A stretch of 64,000 nucleotides of DNA from Micromonospora sp. HM5-17. Its GTDB lineage: Bacteria; Actinomycetota; Actinomycetes; Mycobacteriales; Micromonosporaceae. The stretch is taken from NCBI RefSeq assembly GCF_003762835.1, contig NZ_RJWA01000007.1, positions 186,001 through 250,000 on the forward strand. The letters are read 5' to 3'. Below are positions 13,981 to 23,445 of the stretch, piece after piece (the first letter of the stretch is position 1; each line of letters opens with the position of its first letter). The position numbers were made by a program, and so were the translations under genes. The notes below the pieces were generated by a model. The model saw only the letters and a program-made list of their open reading frames with translations. It was not told the origin of the DNA and did not search any database.

Positions 13981-14165
13981 CGATGTCGGGTCCGGACGCC
14001 GTGACCGGAGCCCGTCGATCGTGGAGCGTGCGGGACCGGACCGCCGGGCTCGCCGAGGCCCAGGGGGCGGCGCGTCCGCCGACCCGACGGTCCGCCGGGC
14101 TCGCACGCGTCGCGGTGGGCGGCCCTGGGATGGTCGTGTCGGTGGCCTTGGGTATGCTCCCGCAC

Positions 14166-14245
14166 GGCGAGGCCGTAGCGCAGAGGTCGTCGCGCCTTGA
14201 CAGCAAGCTTGGAGGACGCCGGTTCGAATCCGGCCGGCCTCGCCA
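14166..14245 (+). ncRNA. tRNA-like RNA with 10-bp acceptor helix and no regular anticodon arm
   Basis: Positions 14166-14175 pair perfectly over 10 bp with 14235-14244. A D-arm follows (stem 14178-14181 with 14192-14195, loop containing GG) and a perfect 5-bp T-arm (14218-14222 with 14230-14234) with canonical loop TTCGAAT. Read as a 7-bp acceptor starting at 14169, it would encode its own CCA (14243-14245). The middle segment 14196-14217 has tRNA length, but no register gives a 5-bp anticodon stem: the best is a 4-bp hairpin (CTTG ACAG CAAG, 14196-14207). TTGACAG resembles a Val(GAC) loop but its flanks do not pair. A TATGCT -10-like box lies at 14153-14158. It could be a non-translational tRNA mimic, a degenerate tRNA, or an aberrant working tRNA. 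Confidence 0.6.
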
Positions 14246-14268
14246 CTCAGCACACGGGGGAGGGGGTC

Positions 14269-15687
14269 GTGTCCGTCGACCGCGCCGAGGTGGCGGCCTG
14301 TGTGGCCGTCCTCGCCCGCCTCGACGACGCGGACCTCGACGAGTCGACCCGTGCCGAGCTCGAGCGCGCCGTGGTGACGGCGTACCGGGGGGTGAAGAAA
14401 CGGGCCCGGTCCCGTCGCGCGACGCGGAGCCGGGAGGCCGACCGCGCCCTCCTCGCCACCGCGACCCGCTTCCACACCGAGATCCCCGATCCCGCGCCGC
14501 CCGATCCTGATGCGACTCCCGCCGCGCGCGCGGTGACGCCGGCCGAGGCCGTGGCGGAGCCGGTCGCCGCCGATGCGGCGCCCGCCGGCCCGGCCGGCCC
14601 CGGCACGCTCCGGCGGGCGCGCCGCTGCTACGTCTGCAAGACGCCGTACCGCCAGGTCGACGTCGACTACCACCTGATGTGCCCGCCGTGCGCGGAGGAG
14701 AACCGCCGTCGGCGGTACGCCCGCTGCGACCTGACCGGCCGGACGGCCGTGGTCACCGGAGGGCGGGTGAAGATCGGTTTCCACACCGCCCTGAAGCTGC
14801 TCCGGGACGGCGCCGAGGTCATCGTCACGACCCGGTTCCCACGGGACGCGGCCCGCCGGTACGCCGCGGTGCCCGACTTCGACGACTGGGCCGACCGGCT
14901 CTACGTGCACGGGCTCGACCTGCTCGACCTGCCCGGCCTGCTCGACTTCATCGGCCTGGTCCAGCGGCGCTTCGCCGGGCTGGACATCCTGATCAACAAC
15001 GCCGCGCAGACGCTGTACCGGCCGGCGGCGTACTACCGCGAGATCCGGCAGGCCGAGACGACGGCGCTGAGCGGGCCGGCGGCCCGGGTGGCGATCGGCG
15101 GGTCCACCCCGGCGCCGACCGACGGCCCCGCCCTGCCGGCCAGGCTGGACGCCCTCTTCCCGCCCGGCCTGCGCGACGAGACCGGCGAGCAGCTCGACCT
15201 GCGCGACGTCAACTCCTGGGTGCTCCGGGACGCTGACGTCAGCCCGCACGAGTGGCTCCAGGTGCACGTGGTCAACGCGTTCGCGCCGTTCCTGCTCACC
15301 TCCCGGCTGCGTCCGCTGATGGAGACGAGCGTCCACCCACGACGGTACGTCGTCCAGGTCTCCGCCATGGAGGGCAGTTACTCGCGGTCGACCAAGACCG
15401 TCCGCCACCCCCACACCAACATGGCGAAGGCGGCGCTCAACATGCTGGTCCGCACGGTGGCGGCGGACTACCTGACCAGCGGGATCCATATGAACAGCGT
15501 GGACACCGGCTGGGTGACCGACGAGCGCCCGCATCCGAGCAAACGCGCCCAGCGCGACCTCGGCTTCCGCCCACCACTCGACGTGATCGACGGCGCGGCC
15601 CGGGTCTACGACCCGATCGTGCGGGGCGAGGCCGGCGCGCCGGTGAGCGGCCTGTTCCTCAAGGACTACCGGAGTGTGCCCTGGTGA
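14269..15687 (+). CDS. Zinc-ribbon/short-chain dehydrogenase-like protein, catalytic Tyr missing
   Basis: A 472-aa protein, first of five coupled genes. A helical, basic N-terminal region (1-75) and an Ala/Pro/Glu linker lead to a zinc ribbon with Cys pairs at 120/123 and 138/141, then an SDR Rossmann fold from about 155. The nucleotide motif is TGGRVKIG (163-170) and the NNAG equivalent is NNAAQT. Ser365 is present, but the YxxxK motif reads TNMAK (383-387), so the catalytic tyrosine is Thr. This suggests a nucleotide sensor, or a non-classical enzyme. The GTG start follows GGAGGGGG and lies 24 bp after the tRNA-like RNA. The stop overlaps the next start (GTGA). Confidence 0.85.
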   Translation: MSVDRAEVAACVAVLARLDDADLDESTRAELERAVVTAYRGVKKRARSRRATRSREADRALLATATRFHTEIPDPAPPDPDATPAARAVTPAEAVAEPVAADAAPAGPAGPGTLRRARRCYVCKTPYRQVDVDYHLMCPPCAEENRRRRYARCDLTGRTAVVTGGRVKIGFHTALKLLRDGAEVIVTTRFPRDAARRYAAVPDFDDWADRLYVHGLDLLDLPGLLDFIGLVQRRFAGLDILINNAAQTLYRPAAYYREIRQAETTALSGPAARVAIGGSTPAPTDGPALPARLDALFPPGLRDETGEQLDLRDVNSWVLRDADVSPHEWLQVHVVNAFAPFLLTSRLRPLMETSVHPRRYVVQVSAMEGSYSRSTKTVRHPHTNMAKAALNMLVRTVAADYLTSGIHMNSVDTGWVTDERPHPSKRAQRDLGFRPPLDVIDGAARVYDPIVRGEAGAPVSGLFLKDYRSVPW

Positions 15688-16820
15688 GCGAACCGACCCC
15701 GGTGCGCTGCCCGATCATCGCCAACCCCGAGACCGGGCTCGCCGCGCCGACCGACTTCGACCCGCTGCTGGCCCGCCTCGCGGTACCGGACGCGGTCTCG
15801 GACTCCGAGGTCTTCCCGCGCGGTACGCTCCGGGCCGACGGCCGGCTCGACCTCTGTAAGCAGGGCCTCGGACCGGTGCAGACCGGGCGGATCGCCGCCG
15901 CGGCGGTCGACTCCCCACTGGTCCGGCACCTGCTGCTCGGCACCAACGCGCTCGGTACGGAGGGCGCCCGAGCGGTGGCGGCCGCGCTCCGGCCCGGCCA
16001 CCGGGTGCAGACGCTCTACCTCGGCTGCAACCGGATCGACGCGGCCGGAGTGGAGGCCCTGGCCGCCCGGATCGAACGCGACGACACGGTCCGGGCGCTC
16101 TGGCTCAAGCGCAACCCGATCGGCGACGCGGGGGTGGTCCGGCTCGCCGCGGCGCTCGAGGTCAACACCACGATCCGGACCCTCGACCTGGTCAACGTGG
16201 GGATGAGCGAGCGCGGACTGGCCGTTCTCACCGAGGCGCTGATCCGGCGGAAGCCGGCGCTGCAACGGCTGTTCCTCGGCGGCAACGGCTTCGGCCCCGA
16301 GACGGCCTCGACCCTGGGCGCCCTGGTCCGTGAGGCGGGGGTCCGCGAACTGTTCCTCGCCGCCAACCACCTCGGCGACGACGGAGCCGCCGAGCTGGCC
16401 CGGCTCGCCGACGGATTCGAGCTGACCCTGGGGCTGGGCGGCAACGGCATCACGGCGGCCGGGGTCGCGGCGCTGGCCCGACACCTGGGGGCGTGGCACG
16501 GCCTGGACCTGGCCCGGCCGCCCTCCGAACGGGCGCTCGGGGCCCGCGGCAACGTGGTGGGGGACGAGGGCGCCGCCGCGCTCGCCGCGGCGCTGCCGGC
16601 GGCCCGGCTCCGCCGGCTGGACCTGCGGCGTACCGGGATCGGCGGGCGGGGCGCCCGACTACTCGTCGAGGCGATCGACGGCCACCCCACCCTGGAGTAC
16701 CTCGGCATCAACGGCGGGGTCCCCCGCCGGATGCGCCGCCGGGCCAGCACCCTGCTCGCCGAGCGGCCCGTCACCCCTCCCCACCCGGACATCCAGGCGA
16801 TTGTGAGCGTCTACCGGTGA
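15684..16820 (+). CDS. Leucine-rich-repeat protein, ribonuclease-inhibitor type
   Basis: A 378-aa protein, second in the operon. From about residue 70 to 350 it consists of roughly ten repeats of about 28 residues of the ribonuclease-inhibitor class, e.g. VQTLYLGCNRIDAAGVEALA, VRALWLKRNPIGDAGVVRLA and VRELFLAANHLGDDGAAELA. Such repeats form a curved scaffold for protein binding. There is no signal peptide or membrane segment, so it is cytoplasmic. The first 70 residues resemble the start of standalone bacterial LRR proteins but are unassigned. It is coupled at both ends by 4-bp overlaps. I infer a recognition or assembly subunit of the system. Confidence 0.85.
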   Translation: MSEPTPVRCPIIANPETGLAAPTDFDPLLARLAVPDAVSDSEVFPRGTLRADGRLDLCKQGLGPVQTGRIAAAAVDSPLVRHLLLGTNALGTEGARAVAAALRPGHRVQTLYLGCNRIDAAGVEALAARIERDDTVRALWLKRNPIGDAGVVRLAAALEVNTTIRTLDLVNVGMSERGLAVLTEALIRRKPALQRLFLGGNGFGPETASTLGALVREAGVRELFLAANHLGDDGAAELARLADGFELTLGLGGNGITAAGVAALARHLGAWHGLDLARPPSERALGARGNVVGDEGAAALAAALPAARLRRLDLRRTGIGGRGARLLVEAIDGHPTLEYLGINGGVPRRMRRRASTLLAERPVTPPHPDIQAIVSVYR

Positions 16821-18502
16821 CCACGACACCGCCCGTCATCCCCGAACTCCGTGTCTGGCAGCGGGTCCGCCGGTACGCCGTACCACCGGCGATGATCGAG
16901 GCGTGCACCGCGGCCCGCGAGGCCGGGGACTGGCGGGCCGCCTGCGCGGCCGGCCGGATCGACGTCACCGTCGACCTCGCCGAGGTGCGGCGCGAACACG
17001 GCCGGCGGCATGCCGAGCTGATCGAGGCGGATCTCGCCGCGCTCGCGCCGGACCTGCTGCGCTGGCACCTGCCCCGGGTCCTCGGCGGCCGGACCAGCGT
17101 CGCCACCCACCGGCAGTTCCTGCTGTCGGTACGGGAGGGACGCCTCGACCCGGGGGACCCGGTCCTGGTGCTGTCCACCCCGAAGACGGTCGACGGCTCC
17201 CAACGGCTTCGCCTCGCCGTCCGACCCGCCGTGGAGGAGGAGGCCCGGCGGTGGGACCTGCCGCCGGTCTACTGGAGCGTGCGCCACGTCGACGGTCTCG
17301 CAGCCGCCCACGGCGGCTCCCCGGCGCGGCTGCCCGGCTTCGCGCCGGACGGGACGGTCCGCTTCTTCGAGGCGTACGCGACGACCGTCGACCCGGCCGA
17401 CCCGGCGAGCCGGTCCGAGGTCTTCGACCGGTGCATCGCCGCCGGCGACCTCGTCGCCGCCTGGGCGGCCACCGGCGTGGAGCTGGATCCCACCCCGCCG
17501 GTCAGCTCCCGGGACGACGACGCGATCGAGCAGGTCCGGGCGGGCGTGGTGACGCCGGTCGGGCTGACCGCCGAGCTGACCCGCCTCCACCGGCGCTACG
17601 GAGTGGACCGGGTGGCCGTCGGCGGCCGGTGGTGGCCGACCCTGGAGGTACGCCGCCGGAGCGACGGCACCGTCACCGCCTCGTTCGTCAAGAAGCCCGC
17701 GGGCTCGCACCGCCACTTCCTCGCCGAGCCGGTGCACACCCGCCCCGTCGACCTCGAACTGCTCCGGCACGGCCTCATCGACCCGGCCGCGCTTCATCCC
17801 CTCGTGCGGCGGGCACTCCTCCCACACCTGACGGTCGACACGGCGGTCCGGCCCGACCGTATCGACCTGCGGCGCAGCGTGCCGGTGCGGTGCCGTGGCG
17901 AGTGGCACACGGTGGTGCACGCCGACGGCCGGCTGGACCTGGCCTCCCACACCGTGGAGGAGGTGGGCCGGGAGGCGGCGCTGCGGGCCCTGGGCGGCCC
18001 GATCAGCGGCTGTTTCGCGGTGCTCGACGCGTGGCGTTCCACGGGTGGCTGGCTGCCGCGGCAGCTGCGGGAACTCCGTCGCGAGGTGCTGCAACGGCTC
18101 CAGCACGGCGGGTCGGCGGCGTTTTCCGCACTACTGGACGCCGGCCTCGACCCGCTGATGCGCGACGGTCGCGGCCGTACCCTGCTGCACCACCTGCGCT
18201 GCGTCCGGGACGTCACCCTGGTCCGGCGGCTGGTCGATGCCGGAGTGCCGCTCAACGCCGCCGACCGACGCGGGCGGACGGCACTGCACGTCACCGTCGG
18301 CGACGGTGGCACCCCGGAGATGGTCCGCGCGCTGCTCGAGGCCGGCGCCGATCCAGATCTGGTTGACGCCGAGGACATGAGCGCCGCCGAGCTGGCCGAG
18401 CGGAAGACGTACCTCTACGACGATGACGAAGACGAGGTCCCCGAGGAGTTCCGGGACGTACTGCGCGTCCGTGACGTCATCGAGGATTGGCAGACGAGGT
18501 GA
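16817..18502 (+). CDS. Ankyrin-repeat protein with large N-terminal domain of unknown function
   Basis: A 561-aa protein, third in the operon. Residues 1 to about 425 form a soluble, Arg/Asp-rich region I do not recognise. It contains possible paired segments near residues 25-60 and 195-225 (both spell AAREAG- or IAAGDLVAAWAA-like helices). The C-terminus (about 430-525) carries three ankyrin-like repeats (DPLMRDGRGRTLLHHL, LNAADRRGRTALHVTV, DPDLVDAEDMSAAELA), then an acidic stretch DDDEDEVPEE. Ankyrin repeats bind proteins. The start overlaps the LRR stop and its own stop overlaps the MoxR start (both GTGA). I infer an adaptor or substrate-selecting subunit. Confidence 0.82.
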   Translation: MTTTPPVIPELRVWQRVRRYAVPPAMIEACTAAREAGDWRAACAAGRIDVTVDLAEVRREHGRRHAELIEADLAALAPDLLRWHLPRVLGGRTSVATHRQFLLSVREGRLDPGDPVLVLSTPKTVDGSQRLRLAVRPAVEEEARRWDLPPVYWSVRHVDGLAAAHGGSPARLPGFAPDGTVRFFEAYATTVDPADPASRSEVFDRCIAAGDLVAAWAATGVELDPTPPVSSRDDDAIEQVRAGVVTPVGLTAELTRLHRRYGVDRVAVGGRWWPTLEVRRRSDGTVTASFVKKPAGSHRHFLAEPVHTRPVDLELLRHGLIDPAALHPLVRRALLPHLTVDTAVRPDRIDLRRSVPVRCRGEWHTVVHADGRLDLASHTVEEVGREAALRALGGPISGCFAVLDAWRSTGGWLPRQLRELRREVLQRLQHGGSAAFSALLDAGLDPLMRDGRGRTLLHHLRCVRDVTLVRRLVDAGVPLNAADRRGRTALHVTVGDGGTPEMVRALLEAGADPDLVDAEDMSAAELAERKTYLYDDDEDEVPEEFRDVLRVRDVIEDWQTR

Positions 18503-19680
18503 CCGTGACCATGCCCGGCCTCGCCGCGGCCGACGCGCTCGTCGCCGCCACCCGAGCCTGGCGGACCGAGCCCGTTCACGACCCCAAGGTGGAGGCGCTT
18601 GCTCTGGCCGTCTCGGCGAACCTGCCGGTGCTGCTCTGGGGTGAGCCGGGGATCGGCAAGTCCGCGACGCTGCAGCAGCTCGCGGAGGGGATGGGCACGC
18701 CGCTGGAGACGGTGATCGCCAGCGTGCACGAGCCCAGCGACTTCGCCGGGCTGCCGGTCGTCGGCGACTCGCCCGCCACCGACGGGGTGCCGATGGCCCC
18801 GCCGGACTGGGCGGTACGCCTCGCCCGGGCCGGCACCGGGCTGGTCTTCTTCGACGAGCTCTCCTCCGCGCCGCCCGCGGTGCAGGCCGCGCTGCTCCGG
18901 GTGGTGCTCGAACGCCGGGTCGGGAGCCTGCAACTGCCGCCCGCGGTGCGGATCGTCGCCGCCGCGAACCCGCCCACCAGCGCCGCCGACGGCTGGCACC
19001 TCAGCCCGCCGCTGGCGAACCGCTTCGTCCACCTGCACTGGACCCACGACGCGCGGACCGTCGCCCGGGGTCTCGCCGGCACCTGGCCGGCGGTGTCGGT
19101 GCCGACCGTCGAACCGGGCCGTACGTCGACCGCGCTGGCGAAGGCGCGGGGCGCGGTCGCCGGCTTCCTCACCGCCCGCCCCGGCCTCGCCCACCACCTG
19201 CCGGCGGACACCGAGGCCCGGGGCGGAGCATGGCCCTCCCCGCGCACCTGGGAGATGGTGCTGCGGCTGCTGACCTTCCACTACAGCGCCGGCACCAGCG
19301 CGGAGGCGCTGGCACTCGCGGTGGTGGGCGCGGTCGGGGACGGCGCCGGCCTCGAGTTCGTCAGCTACCTGGAGCACCTCGACCTGCCCGACCCCGAGCG
19401 GGTGCTCGCCAACCCGGAGGCGTTCGCGCTGCCCGAGCGGGGAGACCGGCAGCTCGCCTTCCTCACCGCGGTGGTCTCCGCCGTGCAGACCCGCGTCGAC
19501 CGACGGCGCTGGGAGGCGGGCTGGACGGTGCTGGAGAAGGCGGTCGAGGCCGGGGTGCCGGACGTCGCGGCCCGGGCGGCGATGGACCTCGCCGCGCTGC
19601 GGGACCCGGCCTGGCCGGTGCCGGCGACGATCGACGCCTTCGTCGAGGTGCTGCGGCTCTCCGGACGCCTGCCGGGATGA
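18499..19680 (+). CDS. MoxR-family AAA+ ATPase
   Basis: A 393-aa AAA+ ATPase, fourth in the operon. Walker A is WGEPGIGKSATL (48-55 core). Walker B is LVFFDELSS (about residue 118). Sensor and arginine-finger elements follow (RIVAAANPP; LANRFVHL). MoxR ATPases work with VWA-domain partners as chaperones that assemble or activate complexes; the VWA partner is the next gene. The GTG at 18499 keeps the operon's GTGA overlap pattern. A TTG four codons earlier is in frame but less likely. The C-terminal helical domain extends to about 390, longer than minimal MoxR proteins. Confidence 0.92.
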   Translation: MTVTMPGLAAADALVAATRAWRTEPVHDPKVEALALAVSANLPVLLWGEPGIGKSATLQQLAEGMGTPLETVIASVHEPSDFAGLPVVGDSPATDGVPMAPPDWAVRLARAGTGLVFFDELSSAPPAVQAALLRVVLERRVGSLQLPPAVRIVAAANPPTSAADGWHLSPPLANRFVHLHWTHDARTVARGLAGTWPAVSVPTVEPGRTSTALAKARGAVAGFLTARPGLAHHLPADTEARGGAWPSPRTWEMVLRLLTFHYSAGTSAEALALAVVGAVGDGAGLEFVSYLEHLDLPDPERVLANPEAFALPERGDRQLAFLTAVVSAVQTRVDRRRWEAGWTVLEKAVEAGVPDVAARAAMDLAALRDPAWPVPATIDAFVEVLRLSGRLPG

Positions 19681-20894
19681 CCGGGGCGCTCGACCGGACG
19701 AAGCTGCTCGCGGCCCGGTTCCGGGCGGCCCAGGAGCGGCCGTACCTGGCCACCGCGTTGTTCAGCGTTACCGTCGTCGAGTCCCGGCTGGTGCCGACGA
19801 TGGGTGTGGACCGGCGGTGGCGCTGCTACGTCTCGCCGGGGTTCGTCGACCGGACACCGGTGGCGCAGCTCGCCGCGGTCTGGGTCCACGAGGTCGCTCA
19901 CCTGCTCCGCGACCACCACGGCCGGGCCGACCGGCTCGACACCGGGGACCGGTTGGACCACTACCGGGTCAACGTGGCGCAGGACTGCGAGATCAACGAC
20001 GACCTGGTCGCGGACCGGCTCCCGCTGCCGGAGGGCCGACTGGAGCCGGCGACGTTCGGGCTTCCGACCGGGCTGCTCTTCGAGCAGTACCTGGCGCGGT
20101 TGCCGGCGAACGTCCGCAGCCGCGTCCGGCCCGGCCTCGAGGGTGTCCCCGAGGGCGGCGGCGCGCTCGACTGCGGCTCCGGCGCGCACGGTCTGGCCCG
20201 ACCCTGGGAGATCGGGGCGGTCGGCGGCGGGGTCAGCGACGTCGAGGCGGGCGCGATCCGCCGCGACACCGCCCGGGCGATCCGCGACCATGCCCGTAGC
20301 CGGGGGACGGTTCCGGGCGGCTGGCAGCGGTGGGCCGACGAGGTCCTGGAGCCGACCGTCGACTGGCGGCGGGCGCTGACCGGCGCGGTCCGGGAGGCTG
20401 CGGCCTGGGCGAGCGGGGCGGTGGACTACACGTACCACCGGCCGTCCCGACGATCGGCGGCGCTGCGGGGCGTGGTGCTGCCGAGCCTGCGCCAGCCGGT
20501 GCCCCGGGTGGCGGTCGTCGTCGACACCTCGGGCTCGATGGGTGAGGAGCGGTTGACCGCGGCGCTCGCCGAGATCTCCGGGGTGCTTCGGGCGGTGGGG
20601 ATCGGCGGGAACCGGGTCGTCGTGCTCTCCTGCGACGCGGACGTGCACGTGGTCCGCCAGGTCCACACCGTCGGCGAGGTACGGCTCGTCGGAGGCGGCG
20701 GCACCGACATGCGGGTCGGGATCACCGAGGCGCTGAAGAGCCGGCCGCACATCGTCGTGGTGCTGACCGACGGGTACACGCCCTGGCCGGAGCAACCGCT
20801 GGAGTCGACCCGGGTCGTCGTGGGACTGATCGGGGACGACGCCCCCGAGCCGCCGTCCTGGATCACCACGATCCACATCCCCGACGACCGGTAG
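19677..20894 (+). CDS. VWA-domain protein with N-terminal HExxH metallopeptidase-like domain (DUF2201 type)
   Basis: A 405-aa protein, last of the five genes. The N-terminal domain has a zinc peptidase-like motif HEVAHLLRDHHGR (His71, Glu72, His75) followed by NVAQDCEINDD. The C-terminal VWA-like domain carries the MIDAS motif DTSGS (283-287), GGGGTDM and LTDG. This DUF2201/VWA-like pair is commonly encoded beside MoxR ATPases. Whether it is a peptidase or only binds zinc is unknown. It is coupled to the MoxR gene (ATGA). The final codons and stop are duplicated immediately downstream. Confidence 0.9.
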   Translation: MTGALDRTKLLAARFRAAQERPYLATALFSVTVVESRLVPTMGVDRRWRCYVSPGFVDRTPVAQLAAVWVHEVAHLLRDHHGRADRLDTGDRLDHYRVNVAQDCEINDDLVADRLPLPEGRLEPATFGLPTGLLFEQYLARLPANVRSRVRPGLEGVPEGGGALDCGSGAHGLARPWEIGAVGGGVSDVEAGAIRRDTARAIRDHARSRGTVPGGWQRWADEVLEPTVDWRRALTGAVREAAAWASGAVDYTYHRPSRRSAALRGVVLPSLRQPVPRVAVVVDTSGSMGEERLTAALAEISGVLRAVGIGGNRVVVLSCDADVHVVRQVHTVGEVRLVGGGGTDMRVGITEALKSRPHIVVVLTDGYTPWPEQPLESTRVVVGLIGDDAPEPPSWITTIHIPDDR

Positions 20895-20920: not shown

Positions 20921-21185
20921 GCGGGCCATGCGGCCAACGAGAGCCCCACGACCGCGCCGAGCCGCACCACTCCCACCAGGCTCCCGGGGCCACCGTCCCC
21001 CCGGGGCGGGACCCGTGCGGACCGTCACCGTGACGGTTGCTGGTCCGGTGACTTTTCCGGCCGATAGCATGCAGGGGCGAGATCGTGTACCCCGGCCGGA
21101 CCCGGTCCTTCGCGGGAGCGTCGCCGGCCGTTCCGTCATTCCGCGGTCGACCGGGTGTGGCAGACCGGAAGGACGGGGGAGTGAG

Positions 21186-22196
21186 ATGGCCGTACGCAGC
21201 CCTGCCATGACCGACGTGGCGCGTCTTGCCGGCGTGTCGCACCAGACGGTGTCGCGGGTCTTGAACGGGCACCCGAACGTGCGCGAGCAGACGCGGTTGC
21301 GGGTGCAGGCTGCGATCGCCGAGTTGGGCTACCGGCCGAACCGCGCGGCTCGGGCGCTGGTGACGGGCCGTTCGCAGGTGATCGGCGTGGTCGCCCAGAA
21401 CACGACGCTGTACGGTCCGGCGTCGTTGTTGACGGCGTTCGAGCAGGCGGCGGCGGAGGCGGGTTTCGCCGTCAGCGTCGGAAGCGTGCGCGACCTGGAC
21501 TACCGGTCGATCTCCGCGGCCGTGGAGCAGCACCTGGCGCACCGGGTGGCGGGGATCGTGGTGATCGCCCCCGTGGAGTCGGCGGGTGAGGCGTTGGAGC
21601 GGTTGCCGCAGGGTGTGCCGTTGGTGACGGTGGACGGCGATCCCCGTCGGCCGGTGCCGCTGGTGACGGTGGATCAGGTGGCGGGAGCCCGGGAGGCGAC
21701 GCGGCATCTGCTGGCGGCCGGGCACACGACGGTGTGGCACGTCTCGGGTCCGGCGGACTGGTTCGACAGCGCGGGACGGATCGAGGGGTGGCGGCAGGCG
21801 TTGGAGGAGGCGGGGGCGGAGGTGCCCCCGGTGGTGCCGGCGGACTGGTCGGCGGCGGCCGGTTACCGGTGCGGGCAGATGCTGGCGCGGATGCCGGAGG
21901 TGACCGCGGTCTTCACCGCCAACGACCACCTGGCGTTGGGCGTGTTGCGGGCGTTGCACGAGTACGGGCGCCGGGTGCCGGAGGAGGTGAGCGTGGTGGG
22001 GTTTGACGACGTGCCGGAAGCGGCGTACTTCATCCCGCCGTTGACCACGGTGCGGCCGGATTTCGCGGCGGTGGCGGAGGCGAGTCTGGCGTTGCTGTTG
22101 GCGCAGTTGGACTCGGACGGCGCGGTCGGCGTGCAGCGGCAGACCATCGCGCCGACCCTGGTACCGCGCCGCAGCGTCGCCCCACCACCGGCCTGA
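21186..22196 (+). CDS. LacI family transcriptional regulator
   Basis: A 336-aa repressor. The N-terminal helix-turn-helix and hinge (MTDVARLAGVSHQTVSRVLN, residues 8-27, through about 65) are followed by a periplasmic-binding-protein-like sensor domain with the typical VVGFDDVPEAAYFIPPLTTV block near residues 275-295. The ATG at 21186 follows GGGGGAG. It is convergent with, and clearly paralogous to, the LacI regulator at 22315-23445 (same HTH sequence and similar sensor). The likely effector is a plant-derived sugar. Its targets are uncertain; with an identical recognition helix it may share operators with the paralogue. Confidence 0.9.
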   Translation: MAVRSPAMTDVARLAGVSHQTVSRVLNGHPNVREQTRLRVQAAIAELGYRPNRAARALVTGRSQVIGVVAQNTTLYGPASLLTAFEQAAAEAGFAVSVGSVRDLDYRSISAAVEQHLAHRVAGIVVIAPVESAGEALERLPQGVPLVTVDGDPRRPVPLVTVDQVAGAREATRHLLAAGHTTVWHVSGPADWFDSAGRIEGWRQALEEAGAEVPPVVPADWSAAAGYRCGQMLARMPEVTAVFTANDHLALGVLRALHEYGRRVPEEVSVVGFDDVPEAAYFIPPLTTVRPDFAAVAEASLALLLAQLDSDGAVGVQRQTIAPTLVPRRSVAPPPA

Positions 22197-22314: not shown

Positions 22315-23445
22315 CTACCCCCGCCCGCCAGGGCCGCCGGGCCGGGCACCGCCTGATGGGCGGCCCCGCCGTCGCCGGGCGCGCCCCGGCATCGCCGTAC
22401 TGGCCCGGACCACCAGCTCCGGTGCGAGCACCACATGGTCCGGCGACCGTCCGCGACCCTGCCGATCGATCTGGTCGAGCAGGACCCTGAGGCTGCGCCG
22501 GCCGAGTTCGGCGAAGTCCTGGCGGACCGTGGTCAGCGGGGGCAGGAAGTACTCGGCGTCCGGGGTGTCGTCGAAGCCGACGACGCTGACCTGTTCCGGC
22601 ACCCGACGACCGGCCTCGTGCAGGGCGCGCAGCACGCCGAGCGCGATCTGGTCGTTGCCGCAGAAGATCGCGGTGACCGACGGGTCCCGGGCGAGCACCA
22701 TGCCCTGCTCGTAGCCGGAGCGCGCGGTCCAGGCGCCGGGCGCGACGGGCGGCACGACGGCGCCCGCGTCGTAGAGGGTCCGGCGCCAGCCCTCGATCCG
22801 CTCGTACGCCTCCGGCCAGTCGATCGGCCCGGCCACGTGGTGTACGGTCGGGTGCCCCAGGTCGAGCAGGTGCTGGGTGGCCAGCCGGGCACCCGCTCCG
22901 TTGTCGATCCGCACCGTCGGTACCGCGTCGTCGTCGGTGGCGCCCCCGCCGACCCCGACACTGGCCAGCCCGGCCGGCACCTGGAGGAGCGCGGTGGTGA
23001 CGGTCGGCTTGGGTGCGATCGCGATGATGCCCTCGACGGACTGCTGGGTGAGCCGGTCCACGGCGTCGAGCACCGACCGGCGGTCGAGGTTGGGTACGGT
23101 GGCGACGCTGACGAAGTAGCCGGCCTGCCGCGCGGCCGCCTCGATGCCGTAGAGCATCGAGGCGGGGCCGAAGAGCGTGGTCTCGAAGCCGATGATCCCG
23201 AGGGTGCGGGACCGGCGGGTGACCAGGGTGCGGGCCGCCAGGTTGCGGCGGTAGTTCAGGGCCCGCATCGCCTCCAGGACCCGCGCCCGGGTCTCCGGAC
23301 GGACGTTCGGGTGCTCGTTGAGCACCCGCGACACGGTCTGGTGGGAGACGCCGGCCAGCCGGGCGACGTCACGCATGACCGAACCGCGCGGGCGGGCGCT
23401 CGGCGCCTCGGCCGGGTCGGCGTCCCCATCGGTCGAGGAATTCAC
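22315..23445 (-). CDS. LacI family transcriptional regulator of the arabinose locus
   Basis: A 376-aa repressor. The HTH MRDVARLAGVSHQTVSRVLN lies at about residues 24-43 after a disordered N-terminal tail, so a shorter start at residue 24 is possible. The sensor domain carries FCGNDQIALGVLRALHEAG and VVGFDDTPDAEYFLPPLTTV. The C-terminus is a basic, Gly/Arg-rich tail. It sits at the end of the arabinose locus. Its promoter contains a TGTTACCGCTCACA site that is repeated exactly (opposite strand) upstream of araB, so it probably represses the regulon and itself until L-arabinose or an arabino-oligosaccharide binds. Confidence 0.9.
   Translation of the reverse strand: MNSSTDGDADPAEAPSARPRGSVMRDVARLAGVSHQTVSRVLNEHPNVRPETRARVLEAMRALNYRRNLAARTLVTRRSRTLGIIGFETTLFGPASMLYGIEAAARQAGYFVSVATVPNLDRRSVLDAVDRLTQQSVEGIIAIAPKPTVTTALLQVPAGLASVGVGGGATDDDAVPTVRIDNGAGARLATQHLLDLGHPTVHHVAGPIDWPEAYERIEGWRRTLYDAGAVVPPVAPGAWTARSGYEQGMVLARDPSVTAIFCGNDQIALGVLRALHEAGRRVPEQVSVVGFDDTPDAEYFLPPLTTVRQDFAELGRRSLRVLLDQIDRQGRGRSPDHVVLAPELVVRASTAMPGRARRRRGRPSGGARPGGPGGRG

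Follow-up and report, generated by a model that had tools for sequence, protein, structure and literature searches.

Ro60/Rsr combines a VWA protein with a tRNA-like RNA, Y RNA or YrlA, and a protein of the short-chain dehydrogenase/reductase (SDR) fold, SDR5C1/MRPP2, works with tRNA as a subunit of mitochondrial RNase P. MoxR AAA+ genes lie adjacent to VWA genes in ternary conflict systems (PMC7159879), and allo-tRNAs, selC*-tRNA-Cys and the irregular polycistrons of soil metatranscriptomes are bacterial tRNA-like genes with acceptors longer than 7 bp and diverse anticodons (excerpts of PMC7609411). Here we describe a locus of Micromonospora sp. HM5-17, within a window of 64,000 nucleotides (contig NZ_RJWA01000007.1, positions 186,001 to 250,000), in which a tRNA-like RNA gene precedes genes for an SDR with a zinc ribbon, a leucine-rich-repeat (LRR) protein, an ankyrin-repeat (ANK) protein, a MoxR-type ATPase and a DUF2201-VWA protein (Table 1). 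By sequence comparison, the RNA belongs to a covarying, structured RNA family present in two actinobacterial families, Micromonosporaceae and Streptomycetaceae.

In the window RNA, GGCGAGGCCG pairs with CGGCCTCGCC to form an acceptor stem of 10 bp (the canonical acceptor has 7) that abuts a 5-bp T stem. The D arm is standard, and the anticodon region has no regular stem-loop: its arm, CCTTGACAGCAAGCTTGG, is 18 nt long and lacks the regular 5-bp stem and 7-nt loop. The covariation analysis that the first-pass annotation of this DNA had proposed was carried out on 101 distinct relatives, mostly from Micromonosporaceae, with identical RNAs collapsed. A cloverleaf with a 10-bp acceptor is paired in 94.7% of cells, versus 79.6% after shuffling, and double-change cells number 351 versus 112; none of 500 shuffles reached either the pairing or the double-change value. 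Pairing falls to 29-49% when the partners are slid by 1-3 columns as a control. Both sides have changed at nine of the ten acceptor pairs, among them the eighth and ninth, which lie past the canonical seven, and at all five pairs of the anticodon stem, but only 85% of the cells in that stem are paired. Uninterrupted acceptor pairs number 10 in 70 of these RNAs and at least 8 in 85. An independent set of 58 Streptomycetaceae RNAs, collected with a different search pattern and likewise collapsed, gave 88.8% pairing and 219 double changes versus 87 (0/500 shuffles). Because the three outer acceptor pairs are absent in 21-37 of the 58, acceptor length in Streptomycetaceae runs from about 7 to 10 bp, and the idea of a universal 10-bp acceptor was dropped in favour of one limited to Micromonosporaceae-type RNAs.

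The first-pass annotation had reported a tRNA-like sequence 24 bp ahead of five genes joined by 4-bp overlaps, and this is borne out. ARAGORN calls a 'tRNA-Ser(tga)' at 14169-14245, the RNA matches the Rfam tRNA family RF00005 at 42.1 bits (cut-off 29), and the coordinates of the five open reading frames (ORFs) give a 4-bp overlap at each of the four junctions, with 24 nt between the RNA end and the probable SDR start, a GTG at 14269. That first observation is corrected in three respects: the true start of the RNA is 14166, its acceptor has 10 bp, and it is a member of a large RNA family. Among the 51 RF00005 matches in the host genome, the window RNA scores lowest. A covariance model built from the 101 RNAs, whose own high scores are for that reason partly by construction, scores the window RNA at 92 bits and the canonical host tRNAs at no more than 56 bits. 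The 50 other host tRNAs (49 plus a separate tRNA-Ser(tga)) cover all 20 amino acids, so the window RNA is not needed for decoding. With its 10-bp acceptor, its irregular anticodon arm and its dispensability for decoding, it is not an ordinary translational tRNA. The annotation had named two outcomes that would undo its proposal, an RNA missing upstream of homologous operons or an ordinary tRNA; the RNA is conserved with the operons, as described below, and the window copy is not such a tRNA.

Of 250 Micromonosporaceae genomes surveyed, 65 contain the strict RNA pattern (the reversed control found 0 in each genome) and 57 the operon LRR. Both are present in 54, only the LRR in 3, only the RNA in 11 and neither in 182 (p=8e-40, uncorrected for kinship), and the three LRR-only genomes carry RNAs of 58-87 bits before an SDR gene. 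A sample of 396 genomes from the phylum held the operon LRR in two, one of them the host. We fetched related loci, numbered with the prefix L, among them 53 actinobacterial loci with a window-type LRR (L111-L114, L116-L157, L032, L033, L231-L233, L235 and L236; L031 was omitted as the same locus as L118). A coding-strand RNA of more than 57 bits lies within the stretch examined at 51 of these, at L135 only via its extension L237. The annotation had proposed to search for the gene set across Actinobacteria and to test whether the RNA always lies upstream; the full order RNA-SDR-LRR-ANK-MoxR-VWA is kept in 19/47 loci, and one operon, at L235, has no RNA.

The proposal of a single RNA with five genes did not survive this comparison. 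RNAs stand directly before LRR genes without an SDR (for example at L137, L144 and L149), before ANK genes (L138, L142, L155), and before SDR genes where the stretch examined contains neither an LRR nor an ANK relative (L168, L174, L179, L180); several loci contain three or four. We therefore rejected the one-RNA-per-five-genes model, given that LRR, ANK and SDR genes are each led by RNAs separately. MoxR and VWA genes were not found near many of the RNA-SDR loci. A recognised SDR, LRR or ANK relative is present at 26 of the 40 loci chosen for scattered RNAs. From these arrangements, the common core is one or more RNAs with a zinc-ribbon SDR, often with an LRR gene, while ANK genes occur also in separate RNA-led cassettes. 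Two orphan RNAs (L167:773-852 and L171:8115-8193) follow the same small membrane-protein gene in two genomes and have no ANK, SDR or LRR relative in the stretch examined, and another family RNA lies upstream of a FIST-domain gene (L189:8086-8165).

The association with the SDR also follows the phylogeny of that protein. On an SDR tree, with identical proteins collapsed, the presence of the RNA requires 8 changes, versus 46.8 when labels are shuffled. The RNA was scored within 900 nt before the zinc ribbon, with L028, L034, L035, L044, L046, L047 and L115 labelled RNA-bearing by hand; SDRs without an RNA were excluded where less than 900 nt preceded the zinc ribbon, and RNA-bearing ones were kept. 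An RNA accompanies 28/28 SDRs of a Streptomyces-type clade, 26/32 of the window clade, 5/18 from other phyla and deep lineages, and none of the 73 members of a solo clade that extends over actinobacterial orders, where none lies close upstream. The deep part of the tree carries a long-branch warning. Of the six RNA-negative SDRs in the window clade, four (L116, L117, L142, L153) have RNAs at a greater distance upstream, in most cases at an ANK gene; the RNA of L236 is weak and L235 has none. Upstream of solo SDRs in six Mycobacteriales loci (L058, L068, L070, L071, L082, L085), ARAGORN places one or two tRNA-Leu(gag) genes at distances of 0.07 to 3.5 kb.

The RNA pattern was found in 33/200 Streptomycetaceae genomes, against 0 in the reversed control, and two to four copies often stand in tandem. 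Among 30 fetched RNA loci of this family, 25 have an SDR gene downstream on the same strand; at L257 and L263 the RNA adjoins an AAA or VWA gene, and the remaining three have none of SDR, AAA or VWA nearby. Two loci, L103 and L064, contain in addition an opposite-strand pair encoding a DUF2201 metallopeptidase-VWA protein and a double-AAA ATPase, identified at L103 by Pfam (the VWA-like part falling under the cut-off) and at L064 by 80-86% identity. In both, a third RNA lies just upstream of this pair in divergent orientation, which ties the RNA to VWA and AAA+ genes independently of the window operon. A Streptomyces genome (G461, locus L270) has a second MoxR/DUF2201-VWA pair nearer to that of the window (60% and 48% identity), and a search of 3.8 kb at this locus did not reveal the Streptomycetaceae RNA pattern.

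Outside the Actinomycetota, tRNA-like genes precede SDR genes in Cyanobacteria (L034, L046), a member of the Thiotrichaceae (L035), SAR324 (L044) and Armatimonadota (L047), while L036, L038, L039 and L040 have the SDR and no such RNA. Counted outward from the base before U8, the acceptor has 8-9 pairs in six of eight non-actinobacterial RNAs and 6-7 in the other two; the same count in 49 host tRNAs gives 8 pairs in seven and more in none. Since the family model scores these RNAs no better than ordinary tRNAs (at most 50 bits, with both RNAs of L034 missed, against up to 56 for ordinary host tRNAs), their case rests on position and a somewhat long acceptor. They probably belong to the same RNA family, a claim that, given the scores and acceptor counts, we reduced to one of tRNA-like genes at the equivalent position. 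A sample of 244 cyanobacterial genomes yielded only two LRR loci, both already known.

Table 1. Features of the RNA-led operon, in window coordinates
Feature	Position	Strand	Basis and details
Predicted PafBC-type promoter: GTGTCGGTG, 8-nt spacer, TATGCT	14136..14158	+	8/9 to TTGTCRGTG; -10 box starts 13 nt 5' of the RNA
tRNA-mimic RNA	14166..14244	+	10-bp acceptor stem, D arm, variable anticodon region, 5-nt variable loop, 5-bp T arm; CCA not encoded
SDR gene, zinc ribbon, Thr replacing catalytic Tyr	14269..15687	+	ORF, Pfam adh_short
LRR gene, LRR_6 repeats	15684..16820	+	ORF, Pfam LRR_6
ANK gene: N-terminal region of about 410 aa without recognised family, then ankyrin repeats	16817..18502	+	ORF, Pfam Ank
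MoxR-type AAA+ ATPase gene	18499..19680	+	ORF, Pfam AAA_5
DUF2201 gene: HExxH metallopeptidase-like and VWA-like domain	19677..20894	+	ORF, Pfam DUF2201_N+DUF2201

The Pfam assignments in Table 1 support the SDR, LRR, ankyrin, MoxR and DUF2201 readings of the first pass, and the adjacent MoxR and VWA genes form a real pair by Pfam and by comparison with related loci, as had been claimed. The SDR, the most widespread protein partner seen, has a basic N-terminal helix and a zinc ribbon whose cysteines C118/C121/C136/C139 are invariant in 17/17 SDRs. The catalytic Tyr of YxxxK, whose loss had already been noticed, is replaced by Thr in all 17, which sets them apart from classical SDRs; HPHTNMAK was the sole form in 172/172 frames recovered with the search pattern H[PA]H.NMAK, which is blind to other motifs. 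The LRR protein has orthologues in several phyla and a C-terminal S-V-Y/H-R. The ANK family is expanded, often with its own RNA: by mechanical ORF calling, the fetched loci encode 80 distinct proteins, at most four per locus. DUF2201_N was found in 4/9 of the non-window genomes tested and was not found in the cyanobacterial, Armatimonadota, SAR324 and Chitinophaga ones. Directly past the operon lie two mutually convergent ORFs, at 20928-22196 and 22315-23445, recognised by eye as LacI-type regulators; from their appearance, they look unrelated to it.

Database searches gave the operon proteins no specific name in PADLOC or NCBIfam. Judged by PADLOC profiles running along a protein, the operon is not a known anti-phage defence system: PADLOC matched only the ankyrin-repeat stretches of the ANK protein and, weakly and in part, the AAA region of MoxR, and the other three proteins had no match. 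Sequence searches of the Protein Data Bank (PDB) returned generic SDRs and ankyrins among the 60 matches listed and nothing significant for the DUF2201/VWA protein. For the N-terminal fold of the ANK protein, taken from a high-confidence model, the best 50 of 1014 PDB matches were all ankyrins or DARPins by description.

A TANNNT -10 box starts 5-20 nt upstream of the RNA, mostly at 13, in 96/108 upstream regions versus 4.3 after shuffling, and in 34/58 Streptomycetaceae upstreams versus 2.3. From the position of this box, transcription should start at or near the 5' end of the RNA in most actinobacterial copies. Exactly 8 nt before the -10 box, 31/113 upstreams match TTGTCRGTG at 7/9 or better, where shuffled upstreams predict 0.8; all 31 belong to operon-centred loci, and many are close relatives. 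This is the arrangement of the RecA-independent DNA-damage promoter, tTGTCRgtg - 8 nt - TannnT (PMC5656591, in part), whose activator PafBC responds to single-stranded DNA (PMC11804915, in part). The window promoter scores 8/9, and the host encodes a PafC-type protein (150 bits). PafBC control of every cassette was rejected, the motif being limited to those 31 upstreams.

The RNA scaffold hardly changes; the anticodon arm, in contrast, varies among cassettes and is kept among orthologous ones. The arm CCTTGACTGCAAGCTGG precedes many window-type SDRs, and CCTTGGCATCGAGCAGG precedes many LRR genes. Perfect 5-bp stem-loops occur in 42/76 of the 17-nt arms of the family. Two family arms are identical over 17 nt to host tRNA arms (Asp GTC and Ser GCT), where 0.2 are expected. 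General mimicry of host anticodon arms was rejected, since the full comparison gave mild enrichment, and is kept as a weak hint. Loops favour C36 (24/41 and 37/42 perfect arms) and A37 (27/41 and 36/42), and for this reason we discarded an initial description of the arm as hypervariable. As a consequence of this bias, the anticodons are mostly those for Ala, Asp, Glu, Gly, Val, Cys and Ser (36/41 and 40/42). We take the loop bias to reflect protein recognition rather than decoding; charging by a synthetase could nonetheless occur.

At most of the loci examined, the RNA is accompanied by a relative of the SDR, LRR or ANK gene. Tentatively, and as a possibility that we would not yet call probable, we favour a stress-induced, trans-acting RNA-protein system built on tRNA mimics, in which the SDR, LRR and ANK proteins would bind the RNA and MoxR and VWA would be the effector; this and the likelihoods that follow rest on actinobacterial data. 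The RNA would be co-transcribed with the mRNA and then be excised or fold as a small RNA. The long acceptor should bar it from translation. Acting in trans, it may be a ligand of the SDR, with its basic helix and zinc ribbon, and of the LRR and ANK proteins, whereby the exchangeable anticodon arm would let each RNA serve as a specific bait or as an identity tag. The bait might be cleaved, bound or depleted under DNA damage or RNA attack, whereupon the scaffold proteins would relay a signal to the protease-like MoxR AAA+/DUF2201-VWA pair, which would act on a target. One elaboration is RNA surveillance, in which swappable tRNA baits on a translation-incompetent scaffold, each with its own SDR, LRR or ankyrin sensor, would detect tRNA-attacking enzymes or invaders through a shared AAA+/VWA protease effector primed by PafBC; this we think unlikely. 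RNA damage or phage response, the functions suggested in the first pass, are ones that we would at most infer, the PafBC-type DNA-damage promoter being the only direct regulatory hint.

Several observations weigh against a trans-acting system of baits. Baits should have host-like anticodon arms, yet, among distinct perfect arms, only 5/41 have the same loop as a host tRNA (2.9% expected), and the identity of arms to host tRNAs is overall no higher than in a swapped control, the two exact 17-nt matches excepted. The bias towards C36 and the low model scores outside the Actinomycetota count on the same side. The strict PafBC-type motif does not clearly exceed its control in the host genome (five sites, the window's among them, versus one in reverse). 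At 7/9 or better, the motif is found in 31/62 upstreams of operon-centred loci and in 0/51 at the scattered-RNA loci L158-L197. One operon (L235) lacks the RNA, and that of L236 reaches only 40 bits. At fourteen of the 40 scattered-RNA loci, the stretch examined contains no recognised partner; L196, one of the fourteen, overlaps L184. Two family RNAs of 84 and 86 bits also lie about 2 kb upstream of a solo-clade SDR in Micromonospora sp. CP22 (L051:6813-6977). Finally, the gap between RNA and ORF, with a median of 28 nt in 61 cassettes under a mechanical choice of ORF, is equally expected of a cis-acting leader.

Such a leader is the rival that survives best, though we doubt it. A tRNA-like fold at the 5' end of the mRNA would tune expression or stability of the SDR, LRR or ANK gene, without a role in trans, through RNase P/Z processing, through stress-controlled access, or through autoregulation as for thrS. 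Apparent transcription starts at the RNA, its short distance to an ORF in mostly the same orientation, and an anticodon arm that tracks gene type all accord with this. At L103 and L064, the RNA that lies divergently next to the VWA/AAA genes disfavours a purely cis-acting leader and favours a role in trans. Tandem arrays, RNAs with no recognised gene downstream, and an intact tRNA fold with a variable arm, more than a leader needs, point the same way.

The RNAs could instead be real adaptors, charged mimics that feed a tRNA-dependent reaction of the SDR-LRR proteins such as tagging, modification or special decoding, an account that we place behind the leader and ahead of RNA surveillance, and so as rather improbable. 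The D and T arms are intact, few amino acids dominate the anticodons, the acceptor is about 7 bp long in some Streptomycetaceae copies, and CCA can be added after transcription. An adaptor fits poorly with the 10 uninterrupted acceptor pairs of most family RNAs and with the arms that, in some family members including the window RNA, are broken or have 6-nt loops; Pfam recognises no synthetase or ligase among the five operon proteins, and the host has a full set of canonical tRNAs. That a decayed tRNA gene merely marks the integration site of a mobile element carrying these genes is very improbable: the patchy distribution in family and phylum and one match in a putative viral contig would suit it, but the covariation is strong and the promoter conserved, the RNAs lead individual cassettes and form arrays, and the LRR protein has no match in phage and plasmid collections (the search did not extend to integrases near the loci). 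Carriage by phages or plasmids was rejected on the searches of those collections, the viral contig being a single putative one (IMGVR_UViG_2687453458, L230:217-2325); it encodes an SDR and an LRR protein and has no RNA in the roughly 217 nt available before the SDR match.

If the RNA does act in trans, as we tentatively favour, it would represent a new class of bacterial small RNA, a tRNA-mimic family with dedicated proteins, in the two actinobacterial families sampled and perhaps sparsely in other phyla; ARAGORN reports these mimics as odd or undetermined tRNAs. A conserved family of Tyr-less SDRs would then have a function to be sought, DUF2201-VWA/MoxR pairs would gain a concrete RNA partner, and tRNA mimicry would possibly be tied to the RecA-independent DNA-damage response.

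The first-pass annotation recognised no published system with this gene set, and our literature search, by titles and abstract openings, found no description of the RNA with these genes among the matches listed. Its comparison with Ro60 and Y RNA holds for the genetic linkage of a VWA protein to a small tRNA-like RNA, which in the Ro60/Rsr case belongs to stress and RNA-quality contexts. It is an analogy only, because none of the five proteins has a TROVE match (Pfam, E<=0.1); here one protein combines VWA with a DUF2201 metallopeptidase-like domain and has MoxR as its partner, the RNA is a full cloverleaf with a long acceptor, and the core partner is an SDR. With SDR5C1/MRPP2 the operon shares only an SDR fold alongside a tRNA-type RNA, its SDR family lacking the catalytic Tyr and having a zinc ribbon.

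The MoxR-vWA-beta-propeller ternary systems differ in that the window MoxR scores 24.3 bits with the bpMoxR model, under the cut-off of 27, and in the recurrent RNA genes and SDR, LRR and ANK partners found here; by word search of PMC7159879, tRNA and LRR occur in its references only, and SDR, ankyrin and DUF2201 are absent. The PafBC regulon, whose motif the window shares, is known for DNA repair genes of mycobacteria, and the portions of PMC5656591 and PMC11804915 consulted contain no structured tRNA-like RNA. Allo-tRNAs have long variable arms, 8/4 or 9/3 (12-bp) acceptor domains and Ser or Ala identity, and several translate (excerpts of PMC7609411). The window RNA has a 5-nt variable loop and a 10/5 acceptor domain, of up to 15 bp, and is therefore not an allo-tRNA. 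The same excerpts name no protein partners for tRNA-like genes, and mention destabilised tRNA-like forms and polycistrons thought to be part of transposons or toxin-antitoxin systems. The irregular tRNA-like polycistrons of soil metatranscriptomes, known here by that review's description (PMC7609411), might overlap with the RNAs that we describe.

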